NCBI GenBank assembly: GCA_026129865.1
Contig: JAHCHG010000004.1
Coordinates: 62,001 to 126,000, forward strand
Origin: Pyrinomonadaceae bacterium
GTDB lineage: Bacteria > Acidobacteriota > Blastocatellia > Pyrinomonadales > Pyrinomonadaceae
Length of the DNA stretch: 64,000 nt
Direction: 5' to 3'
Every line of letters starts with the position of its first letter. Within the stretch, counting starts at the first letter, position 1. The notes beneath the pieces were generated by a model, which saw only the letters and a program-made list of their open reading frames with translations, ran no database searches and was not told the DNA's origin. Positions 775 through 4,560 of this stretch are shown in pieces. The position numbers and the translations under genes are program-made.

Positions 775-1635
775 ATGTTTGTAATTATCGGAATTGTTGT
801 TGTTTTTCTAAGCGTGATCGGCGGATTTTTGATGATCAACGGTCCGATCGGCGCGCTTATTCAGCCGTCGGAATTCGTCGTTATCGGCGGAGCCGTTATC
901 GGCGCAACGATTGCAGCAAACCCGCTAAAATATCTAAAACGCATTGTCAGCTCGCTCACAACGGCGCTCAAAGGATCGCAATACGACAAGAATGTTTATA
1001 TCGAGCTTTTGCAGATGCAGTACGATATTTATGTAAATTCGAAAAAAGGTGGGCTTTTATCGCTGGAAGAAGACGTCAATAATCCGATGTCTTCTTCGCT
1101 TTTTACAAAATATCCAAATTTCGTCGGAAATCACCACGCCGTCGATTTTTTCTGCGATGCGATGAAAATGCTCGTTAACGGCGCTTGTTCACCGGAAGAG
1201 CTTGAAATGATGCTCGAATCCGAGATCGAAACGCATCACGAAGAAGCGGCGATCATCCCTGGGCTTTTGCAGCGCGCGTCCGACGCTTTGCCGGGACTCG
1301 GAATCGTCGCGGCGGTTCTCGGTATTGTTGTAACTATGCAGCATCTCGACGGATCGCCGGAGGAACTCGGACATCACATCGGAGCGGCACTTGTCGGAAC
1401 ATTTCTGGGGTTGCTGCTTTCGTACGGCTTTCTTGCTCCGGTCGCGGCAAACATCGAAAATCTCGCGGCGGACGAGGGCAAATATTTCAATTGTATAAAA
1501 ACCGGACTTGTTGCATTCGCTTACGGAGCGGCACCCGCGACGGCAGTTGAATTTGCTCGAAAAACGATCTTTAGTTTCGACAGACCCGGCACCGCCGAGA
1601 TCGAACCGCTTCTCAAGGACATTAAGCCGAGATAG
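775..1635 (+). CDS. motA: Flagellar motor stator protein MotA
   Basis: This 286-residue inner-membrane protein is the stator subunit that, with MotB, converts ion flow into torque. It has the MotA/TolQ/ExbB layout: two N-terminal hydrophobic helices, a charged cytoplasmic loop, then the conserved PGLGIVAAVLGIVVTM helix with its proline and a final helix near GAALVGTFLGLLLSYG. The ATG at 775 is preferred over the GTG at 721: it is preceded by GAGGCGG at 763-769 and starts directly in the first membrane helix (MFVIIGIVVVFLSVIGG). A sigma-28-type promoter lies about 180 bases upstream. Confidence 0.92.
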   Translation: MFVIIGIVVVFLSVIGGFLMINGPIGALIQPSEFVVIGGAVIGATIAANPLKYLKRIVSSLTTALKGSQYDKNVYIELLQMQYDIYVNSKKGGLLSLEEDVNNPMSSSLFTKYPNFVGNHHAVDFFCDAMKMLVNGACSPEELEMMLESEIETHHEEAAIIPGLLQRASDALPGLGIVAAVLGIVVTMQHLDGSPEELGHHIGAALVGTFLGLLLSYGFLAPVAANIENLAADEGKYFNCIKTGLVAFAYGAAPATAVEFARKTIFSFDRPGTAEIEPLLKDIKPR

Positions 1636-1830
1636 ATTCGGAGAATAGTGAATCGTGAATAGTGAACAGTGATGGGATGATAGATACGAACCGACCGCGA
1701 ACAGCGGTTTACGAAGTACAGAACAAGAATTCAGACTGTTCACTAACTACGAAATACCGGTGAGATTCAAATTTCATCATGCCAGTATTCACAATTAACG
1801 ATTCACAATTAACTATTTACCTTTAACACG
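1636..1830. repeat. motA-motB spacer with GTGAATAGTGAA-type repeats
   Basis: The 195-base gap is unusual, because motA and motB commonly abut or overlap. Its left end (about 1647-1675) carries tandem variants of GTGAATAGTGAA. Its right end (about 1789-1822) carries the complementary pattern (ATTCACAATTAACGATTCAC), so the spacer could form a long imperfect hairpin. No coding sequence was seen. Confidence 0.5.
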
Positions 1831-2859
1831 ATGGATCAGAACCAGGAACAACCGCCGCGCAGGCGACGGGTCAAAAAATCGAAAGGACACGGCGCACACC
1901 ACGGCGGCGCGTGGAAGGTTGCGTACGCCGATTTCGTAACCGCGATGATGGCTCTATTCCTCGTCTTATGGCTTGTTTCGCAGGCGGACACAAAACTCAA
2001 AGAATCGATCGCAAACTATTTCCGCTCGCCCGGCGTTTTTGAAACGATGGACGGCGGAATTCTTTCACAGGCGAAAAAGGTCAGCAAAGAACCGTCAAGT
2101 CTAACTTCAAAAGACGACGAACAGACGCTTTTCGCAGTTTCACAGACATTGCAGAAAAAATTTCAAACGCGTCCCGAATTTTCAAAATATAAAGATCAAG
2201 TGCAGGTCGATATAACGGAAGAAGGCTTGCGTATTCAATTGATCGACAAAGCCGATCAGGTTTCGTTTCCTTCGGGAAGTTCGGAACTTACCGCCAGCGC
2301 CCGCGAAATTTTAGAAGAAATTGCAGTTGATATTTGCGCGCTTCCGAACAAGATCAATATCGGCGGTCATACCGACCGCCATGTATTTCCTTCCGAAAAA
2401 GGCTACACAAACTGGGAACTGTCCGCAGACCGCGCAAATGCGGCGCGGCGGCTTCTCGAATCCGTTTGTGTTAAGCCGAGCCAGATCCACCGGATCATAG
2501 GATATGCCGACACGGAACCGTTATTTCCCGACGATCCGTTCGCACAGGGAAACCGCCGGATCAGCATTACCGTTTTACGGCTGAATGTTCCCGATCCCGA
2601 AGACGGCTCAGCGCCGGACGACGTAAAACCGGATGTCGCGCCAAACGACATTGGCAAAGATCGGACAAAACCGGCTGAGAAAACTGCAAAAGCCGAAAAG
2701 CCGGAAACGGCAGCGGAATCGAACGAAGCTGACGATCAAAGAACAACGGAAAAGGAAAAGATCAGGAAAAAGCTAAAAGAAGACGGCGCCGTAAAGATCG
2801 GTGAACCGGACGAAATTCCTTCCAGCAAAAAGGTCATTCAAACTGCAAAGTCTCAATAA
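1831..2859 (+). CDS. motB: Flagellar motor stator protein MotB (OmpA-like domain)
   Basis: This 342-residue protein anchors the stator to peptidoglycan and supplies the ion-binding aspartate. A basic N-terminus (PPRRRRVKKSKG) leads into a single membrane helix, AYADFVTAMMALFLVLWLVS; Asp34 is the counterpart of the proton-carrying Asp32 of E. coli MotB. An OmpA/MotB peptidoglycan-binding domain follows at about 130-255, with the signature NIGGHTDRHVF and the conserved ELSADRANAARRLL helix. The last 90 residues are a low-complexity Lys/Glu/Ala tail, longer than usual. The start has only a weak ribosome-binding site. The lipoprotein carbonic anhydrase gene follows after 28 bases. Confidence 0.9.
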   Translation: MDQNQEQPPRRRRVKKSKGHGAHHGGAWKVAYADFVTAMMALFLVLWLVSQADTKLKESIANYFRSPGVFETMDGGILSQAKKVSKEPSSLTSKDDEQTLFAVSQTLQKKFQTRPEFSKYKDQVQVDITEEGLRIQLIDKADQVSFPSGSSELTASAREILEEIAVDICALPNKINIGGHTDRHVFPSEKGYTNWELSADRANAARRLLESVCVKPSQIHRIIGYADTEPLFPDDPFAQGNRRISITVLRLNVPDPEDGSAPDDVKPDVAPNDIGKDRTKPAEKTAKAEKPETAAESNEADDQRTTEKEKIRKKLKEDGAVKIGEPDEIPSSKKVIQTAKSQ

Positions 2860-2887: not shown

Positions 2888-3748
2888 ATGAAAAACCACA
2901 AGATCATACGGATAATTCTGCTGCTTTTCGTCTTTAGCTTTACGATAGTTTCGTCCGGGGTTCTTTTGACCGGATGCGGATCGTCCGCCAATACGAAAGA
3001 TGAAAAAGCACGGAAGAAGAAAAAGAAGCAAATGTTCGATCTTGAAGATGAAGACGATCTGAGCGAAGAGAACGCAAATTCCGCGGAAAAGGATAAAGAT
3101 AAAGAATCGGAAAATTCGAACTCGCCGGAAAACAATTCAGAAATAAAAAAGGAAGTCAAAAAGAACGAAGAAGCAGAAGCGGTGTGGAGCGATCTGATGA
3201 AGGGAAACGAGCGGTTTGTTTCCGGAAAACATACGACGGCAGATTTCGTTTCAGTTCGCAAATCGCTGGCGAAAACGCAAAAGCCGGAAGCGGTCATTCT
3301 CGGCTGCGCCGACAGCCGCGTTCCGCCGGAGCTTGTTTTTGACAAAAATCTGGGCGAACTTTTCGTCGTTCGCGCTGCCGGAAACATCGCCGATCCGATC
3401 TCGCTCGGAAGCATCGAATATGCGGTCGAACATCTAAAATCAAAAGTTATCGTCGTATTGGGTCATGAAAGCTGCGGCGCGGTTGCCGCGGCGGTTTCGA
3501 ACGAGGAAATGCCGACGCGGAATCTTTCTGCGATCGTGAACAAGATCGCGCCCGCGCTCGAAGATTCGTCGAGCTGTCCGTTGGGAGGCGAAATGAAGCT
3601 TGCCTGTGTCGAATTGAATGTAGATCAAAGCGCGGAGGATATTTTAAAAAGCAGCCCCATAATCAAAGAAGCGATAAAAAAAGGCGAATTGACGATAATC
3701 CGAGCGGTTTACATGCTTGAAAGCGGAAAAGTATTGCGCCGCGATTGA
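2888..3748 (+). CDS. Beta-class carbonic anhydrase, predicted lipoprotein
   Basis: This 286-residue protein should interconvert CO2 and bicarbonate. The N-terminus is a lipoprotein signal: a basic start, a hydrophobic core, then LLTGC with the lipidated Cys at 30. A highly charged linker (about 31-100, with KKKKKK and many Glu/Asp/Ser) follows, then a beta-carbonic anhydrase domain. The zinc and catalytic residues are intact: Cys140-Ala-Asp142-Ser-Arg144 and His193-Glu-Ser-Cys196. Most beta-class enzymes are cytoplasmic; a lipoprotein form would sit in the periplasm or on a membrane. The ATG at 2888 is chosen because it starts the signal peptide; longer starts would overlap motB. Placed 28 bases after motB, it is probably co-transcribed with the stator genes. 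Confidence 0.85.
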   Translation: MKNHKIIRIILLLFVFSFTIVSSGVLLTGCGSSANTKDEKARKKKKKQMFDLEDEDDLSEENANSAEKDKDKESENSNSPENNSEIKKEVKKNEEAEAVWSDLMKGNERFVSGKHTTADFVSVRKSLAKTQKPEAVILGCADSRVPPELVFDKNLGELFVVRAAGNIADPISLGSIEYAVEHLKSKVIVVLGHESCGAVAAAVSNEEMPTRNLSAIVNKIAPALEDSSSCPLGGEMKLACVELNVDQSAEDILKSSPIIKEAIKKGELTIIRAVYMLESGKVLRRD

Positions 3749-3779
3749 TCTGAATTTTTTAGCCGTTAAAGCAAAAAAG

Positions 3780-3804
3780 CCCGCCCAAAAGGCGCGGGTT
3801 TTTT
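3780..3804 (+). terminator. Intrinsic terminator after the mot-carbonic anhydrase unit
   Basis: A GC-rich hairpin (CCCGC at 3780-3784 pairing with GCGGG at 3794-3798, with two further C-G pairs and an AAAA loop) is followed by six T residues. It lies about 30 bases after the carbonic anhydrase stop and separates this unit from the fliL operon. Confidence 0.8.
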
Positions 3805-3915
3805 CTATTTTTAAAGTGTCAGGAACTTGACGCCGGTCGTCAAAATAAAGTCGAATCCAGCACGGATTTACCCTCAAACTTCGCAAAAACTACCGTATTT
3901 ACAAGGCGATATGCG

Positions 3916-3931
3916 TGGCACAGCGTTCGCA
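3916..3931 (+). promoter_or_regulatory. Sigma-54-like promoter ahead of fliL
   Basis: TGGCACAGCGTTCGCA has GG and GC at the exact sigma-54 (RpoN) spacing. It differs from the core consensus TGGCAC-N5-TTGCW at a single position (C for the second T). The predicted transcription start near 3942 would leave a short leader ahead of the GGAGGA ribosome-binding site at 3945-3950. It lies just after the upstream terminator, where the fli operon needs a promoter. A weak FliA-like alternative (TAAAGTGT near 3813) is poorer. Confidence 0.5.
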
Positions 3932-3954: not shown

Positions 3955-4560
3955 ATGTCAGAACAATCACAGGAAACCACGGAAACCATATCGACGCCCG
4001 CCGAACCGAAAAAGAGCAAAATGATGCTGATAATTATAATCGCAGTCGTGCTTTTGGCAGGCGGCGGAGCGGGTTACTTTTTTCTCGGCAGCAAAGCCGG
4101 CGCGGACGAAGCCGATTCATCAAGCGACAAGGTTAAAAAGCCGAAAGATGTGCTCGCGGACGAAGAAGCCGCTGTCGACGAGGAACCTTCCGACAGTAGG
4201 ACTTCGAAATCTGCAAAACGTTTGCGCTCCGCAATTCCGGACGATGAGGATGTTAAGAACATCATCGAACTCCAGCCGTTTATCGTAAATCTTGCCGATA
4301 CCGAGCAAGCGCGGTATTTGCGGATGAGCGTAAGTTTAGGCGTCGGCGGCGAAGGCGAAAGCGAAAAGCCCGATCAATTGTTCATTACACGCGTTCGCAA
4401 CGCGATGCTCGCAATAATGTCGGACAAATCTTCGGATGAGATCCTGTCGACGGACGGCAAAACGAAACTCCGCAAAGATCTGCTTCGCGCCGCGCAGGCA
4501 GCGGCGGATGAACCGGAAATTCACGCAATTTACATCACGGACTTTATCGTCCAGCTCTAA
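3955..4560 (+). CDS. fliL: Flagellar basal body-associated protein FliL
   Basis: This 201-residue single-pass membrane protein stabilises the stator-rotor interface. After a short cytoplasmic N-terminus there is a membrane helix near MMLIIIIAVVLLAGGGAGYF, then an acidic low-complexity linker, then the FliL domain (about 95-201) with IIELQPFIVNLAD, YLRMSVSLGV and a C-terminal IYITDFIVQL. The start is well supported by GGAGGA five bases upstream. It is the first gene of a tightly packed export and switch operon: fliN begins five bases after its stop. Confidence 0.9.
   Translation: MSEQSQETTETISTPAEPKKSKMMLIIIIAVVLLAGGGAGYFFLGSKAGADEADSSSDKVKKPKDVLADEEAAVDEEPSDSRTSKSAKRLRSAIPDDEDVKNIIELQPFIVNLADTEQARYLRMSVSLGVGGEGESEKPDQLFITRVRNAMLAIMSDKSSDEILSTDGKTKLRKDLLRAAQAAADEPEIHAIYITDFIVQL

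Follow-up and report, generated by a model that had tools for sequence, protein, structure and literature searches.

A gene for a beta-class carbonic anhydrase (CA) with an intact active site and a lipoprotein signal is the predicted third and last gene of a late, sigma-28-type motA-motB-CA transcription unit in a 4.4-Mb genome of the Pyrinomonadaceae (G000; the window analyzed is the 64,000-nucleotide stretch C16:62001-126000). The enzyme family, the export signal and the unit boundaries are strongly indicated by sequence comparison; the gene order is conserved in five genomes, and within the class the CA clade is restricted to flagellated genomes. We tentatively favor the reading that the product is a late-class, periplasm-facing CA that buffers protons and CO2 in swimming cells; that it is catalytically active, where it resides and whether it acts on the motor are what we infer from these features. 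The features of the locus are summarized in Table 1.

Table 1. Predicted features of the motA-motB-CA unit and the fliL boundary (positions in the window)
Feature	Position	Strand	Basis
Sigma-28-type promoter, TAAA-N15-ACCGATAG, overlapping the flgE stop codon	572..598	+	Consensus match; conserved; FliA encoded
motA	775..1635	+	MotA_N and MotA_ExbB Pfam matches
motA-motB spacer, foldback element with 7-bp GTGAATN repeats	1636..1830	+	Repeat count; fold score
motB, proton-type sequence, long charged C-terminal tail	1831..2859	+	MotB_plug and OmpA Pfam matches; tail comparison
Exported lipoprotein beta-carbonic anhydrase (CA)	2888..3748	+	PF00484, E 1.2e-42; Rv3588c, E 1.9e-36; model compared with 2a5v
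Lipoprotein signal peptide, lipobox LLTGC, lipid Cys30	2888..2977	+	Sequence; lipobox-like Cys in all orthologues
Charged linker, 69 residues, 52% D/E/K/R	2978..3184	+	Composition; pLDDT under 50 over residues 31-87
Intrinsic terminator 3' of CA, hairpin AAAAAGCCCGCCCAAAAGGCGCGGGTTTTTT	3774..3804	+	About -17 kcal/mol; U-rich tail
Inverted repeat TTGACGCCGGTCGTCAA, where an activator of the fliL promoter may bind	3827..3843	+	Sequence comparison
Sigma-54-type promoter of the fliL unit, TGGCACAGCGTTCGCA	3916..3931	+	Consensus match; RpoN encoded
fliL, first gene of the fliL-fliN-fliOPQR-flhB unit	3955..4560	+	FliL Pfam match

Carbonic anhydrase domain and active site

The CA gene encodes 286 amino acids, of which residues 135-282 match the Pfam profile PF00484 (Pro_CA) over its whole length (1-156 of 156) with 146.3 bits, against a gathering score of 25.7, as for a beta-carbonic anhydrase domain. 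The zinc ligands Cys140, His193 and Cys196 and the Asp142-Arg144 dyad are all present, and in the alignment these five residues are invariant across the seven orthologues described below; the assignment to the beta class with an intact zinc site, proposed in an earlier note on this DNA, is thus confirmed, and the product would be expected to catalyze CO2 hydration. It is very improbable that the CA is a structural component, accessory to the motor or to peptidoglycan, whose fold serves for binding instead of catalysis: the lipid anchor and long linker may resemble those of envelope tethers, but a dead enzyme would not be expected to keep every catalytic residue invariant throughout the clade.

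The best relative in both sequence and fold is Rv3588c of Mycobacterium tuberculosis (PDB 2a5v, 1ym3), with which the CADSR and HxxC motifs are held in common. An AlphaFold2 model of the CA (pLDDT 70.7 on average, with higher values in the core and values under 50 over the linker) superimposes on 2a5v with a TM-score of 0.75-0.80 by target length at about 40% identity. The alignment with Rv3588c begins near CA residue 95 and offers no counterpart to the lipobox and linker; Cys230 and Cys240 of the CA are also not conserved there. This cysteine pair was found in all seven CAs of the clade and in none of the 51 other Acidobacteriota CAs aligned (a Cys230-Cys240 disulfide would fit an oxidizing periplasm). 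No link of Rv3588c to flagella is known to us. The nearest curated subfamily is NCBIfam PRK15219 ('carbonic anhydrase family protein'), matched over residues 86-282 with 143.2 bits; this is under the curated cut-off of 221, and by that test the CA is not a member. A second beta-CA without evident signal is encoded elsewhere in the genome (C5:108458).

Transcription unit and its boundaries

The CA gene is preceded by the end of flgE, motA and motB, and followed by fliL, fliN, fliO and flagellar export genes; both FliA and RpoN are encoded in the genome. The core of the sigma-28-type site upstream of motA has one match in the 64 kb, with 0.43 expected by chance, and a sigma-28-type site is found in the flgE-motA gap of all six other CA-bearing genomes (12 of 12 consensus positions in G022 and G073, 10-11 of 12 in the others). 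Genome-wide, the core consensus occurs in 25 copies versus eight for the reversed control, and a flagellin-like ORF, recognized by its N-terminal sequence, begins 111 nt downstream of one copy.

The motA ORF reaches back to a GTG at 721; relatives align from residue 17-19, most of them at the codon equivalent to position 775, which is the more likely start. The spacer between motA and motB (195 nt) contains six GTGAATN repeat matches versus 0.01 expected, with a fold z-score of -3.55; the repeats stand at both ends in inverted orientation, resembling a small mobile or REP-like element. The corresponding gap is far shorter in relatives (e.g. 10 nt in G022), and the repeat-bearing spacer may uncouple motA from motB in G000, a caveat for read-through from the sigma-28-type promoter. 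MotB carries the helix YADFVTAMMALFLVLWL, which is of the proton type. The MotB tail (2580-2859) ends in the motif KL..DGAVxVGxPDxxP, which is common to most flagellated Pyrinomonadaceae and to G049. A role of the motif as a docking site for the CA was considered and rejected, as it also occurs in the CA-less genomes G130, G083, G074 and G049.

The CA start codon follows the motB stop codon by exactly 28 nt and the gene is closed by a terminator hairpin, both as previously described; equivalent hairpins were found 3' of the CA gene in G022, G088 and G086 and none in G096, i.e. in four of the five genomes with the linked order. Among the relatives whose sequence covers this region, those that carry the CA gene and those that lack it both have a sigma-54-type site (TGGCAY-N5-TCGCW) ahead of fliL, and the site is always downstream of the CA gene. 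Because terminator and sigma-54-type site both lie between the CA gene and fliL, the CA is assigned to the motAB unit, and the alternative that it is the first gene of the fliL unit was rejected. With a FliA-type promoter upstream in the unit and a terminator behind the gene, both recognized as consensus matches, the CA is predicted to fall into class III of flagellar genes; the proposal in the earlier note that it shares the sigma-28-type promoter of motAB agrees with the conserved site and the terminator, and is subject to the caveat of the spacer.

Between the CA gene and fliL, a TTGACGC-N5-GTCAA-like element is present in all five linked genomes; in the window this inverted repeat, a possible enhancer for a flagellar sigma-54 activator, is separated by about 75-90 nt from the sigma-54-type site downstream of it. 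The form TTGACG-N6-GTCAA occurs in six exact copies in the genome. In the flagellated, CA-less genome G083 a different ORF of 169 residues (L078:1604-2113) lies between motB and fliL, from which it follows that this junction accepts insertions.

Conservation of gene order and distribution of the clade

The order motA-motB-CA-fliL was found in G000 and in G022, G086, G088 and G096, together five genomes of four genera of the Pyrinomonadaceae, and in these four relatives fliN also keeps its place after fliL. The gap between motB and the CA gene is 18-29 nt across the five genomes, and the CA of the window is 51-61% identical to those of the other four over the aligned part. With its recurrence in four further genomes of three further genera, the arrangement is neither a unique insertion, an outcome that the earlier note had named as refuting its reading, nor an assembly artifact. 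In G096 (L088:5203-6146) the linker contains eight consecutive A, on either side of which the lipobox and the enzyme are read in different frames, and this gene is either frameshifted or mis-sequenced.

Two more orthologues, in G073 and G076, are unlinked: the CA gene is located elsewhere and fliL follows motB. Both stand directly after a gene for an MsrB-like methionine sulfoxide reductase, recognized by sequence (G073, L090:4218-5741; G076, L089:6902-8549). The seven orthologues form one clade in the tree (support 100/99), within which the five linked CAs form a sub-clade (99/95).

When clade membership was set at 228 bits or more (next homologue, 162 bits) and motB was called at E below 1e-30, the clade was present in seven and motB in 15 of the 162 genomes of the class. 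All seven were among the 15 (7/15 motB-positive versus 0/147 motB-negative genomes), the two unlinked cases included. A naive hand calculation gives a chance of about 1 in 10^8 for this co-occurrence, a number that is meaningless as a p-value given the relatedness of the genomes; independent pairs on an rpoB tree, few in number, were concordant in 2.4-3.0 cases on average and opposite in none, with a median p of 0.25 (not significant). Among 396 sampled Acidobacteriota, members of the clade were found only in G000 and G022 (next best, 162 bits), and a scan of a contig database returned one locus, from a Pyrinomonadaceae MAG (L073).

Eight of the 15 motB-positive genomes (G074, G083, G130, G021, G145, G049, G156 and G066) are without the clade, though some genomes are incomplete and a few of these absences may be false. 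The CA is thus not present in all flagellated relatives, as a core motor component would be, and is an accessory, dispensable for a working motor.

The CA gene might also be a passenger that landed once, in an ancestor, at a permissive motAB/fliL boundary and has since shared the fate of the flagellar cluster, being retained or lost together with it. A single event is consistent with the five linked CAs in one clade and with the different insertion at the same unit boundary in G083, and linkage explains part of the co-occurrence with motB; but a passenger would account poorly for a gene that is held before the terminator at 18-29 nt behind motB with its active site intact after such long divergence, and the two unlinked copies, in G073 and G076, likewise occur only in flagellated genomes (one genus, approximately one event). 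We rank this explanation second among the rivals and regard it as improbable.

Export signal and predicted location

A hydrophobic signal followed by a lipobox cysteine (LLTG-C30) was recognized by eye and pattern in the CA of the window, and lipobox-like cysteines in its orthologues (FMSGC, LFTAC, LLTAC, LITGC, FASKC and GLSC). Together with the charged linker this bears out the earlier description of the protein; the linker is 58-103 residues long among the orthologues and varies in both length and sequence.

In every orthologue the lipid cysteine is followed by Gly or Ser. In Escherichia coli, Gly or Ser at this position predicts sorting of a lipoprotein to the outer membrane rather than retention in the inner membrane, and if this E. 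coli rule also holds in Acidobacteriota, the sequence suggests that the CA is anchored in the outer membrane and not in the membrane of the stator. The position 'beside the stator' envisaged in the earlier note would then be less likely, though a linker of this length could let the CA domain reach the peptidoglycan layer or the motor.

Export itself is not the surprising feature, and this idea was dropped: many CA homologues in the class carry Sec-like or Tat-like signals and some carry lipoprotein signals, and these exported beta-CAs occur mostly in genomes without MotB. For example, the beta-CAs of G065 and G066 (L061 and L059) have a lipoprotein signal as does the motor-operon CA, yet fall on a separate branch of the tree, lack the cysteine pair and have no flagellar gene in the flanks examined; G065 gave no MotB match. 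Export signals are likewise predicted on several beta-CAs of other bacteria according to a review in which lipoproteins are not mentioned and no motor operon was noticed (PMC5746736). The general statement that beta-class enzymes are usually cytoplasmic thus needs qualification.

These observations bear on the main rival explanation, a general periplasmic CA for inorganic-carbon or pH homeostasis that shares no more than its regulation with motility: motile, dispersing cells would meet low CO2 and need it, and it would have no physical or functional link to the motor. This explanation is a plausible one, even if we lean away from it. It would accommodate the abundance of exported beta-CAs in mostly MotB-less genomes of the class, the variable linker, the orthologue behind the MsrB-like gene and away from the motor in G073 and G076, and the second, apparently signal-less beta-CA of G000; it would not by itself explain why the clade is confined to motB-positive genomes even when unlinked, or why the gene sits inside the motor unit.

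Proposed function

In the favored reading of a late-class CA that serves the envelope of swimming cells, the product would be exported by the Sec pathway, lipidated at Cys30 and tethered by its flexible charged linker, with the Rv3588c-like domain facing the periplasm, and it would be made at the same time as the motor. There it would speed the CO2/HCO3-/H+ equilibrium, which could buffer and shuttle protons and supply CO2 or bicarbonate, at a time when the stators, driven by protons, are taking them from the periplasm. The conserved gene order suggests, without proving, that this pH or CO2 task in the envelope is tied to swimming.

A more specific version, a dedicated motor-associated CA that is co-made with the stator and supplies or buffers protons for MotAB, would be analogous to partnerships of CAs with transporters in animals; we consider it unlikely. 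Human carbonic anhydrase IX is an alpha-class enzyme of the animal plasma membrane, with a fold unrelated to that of the beta-CAs. Its resemblance to the motor-operon CA is an analogy of working only: it is membrane-tethered, and its charged, proteoglycan-like domain aids proton-coupled transport (PMC6021347). In animal cells, CAs assist the supply of protons to proton-coupled transporters, and it has been proposed that a charged CA domain serves as a proton antenna (PMC6021347, PMC5986270). For bacteria, a literature search yielded no paper that ties a CA to the flagellar motor and no report of a CA in a conserved motor-operon setting; in Vibrio fischeri, an insertion in can reduced soft-agar motility, an effect attributed to impaired growth (PMC3948606).

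Implications

An exported beta-CA is an enzyme of a known kind, and what appears to be new, as judged from the literature searched, is its conserved setting in a motor operon. Even on a modest reading, a conserved non-structural enzyme is added to a motor operon, and a clade of exported beta-CAs with a cysteine pair of its own is defined. If the CA does work for the motor, these bacteria would be controlling the periplasmic supply of protons for swimming, and their motility would have a direct coupling to CO2.
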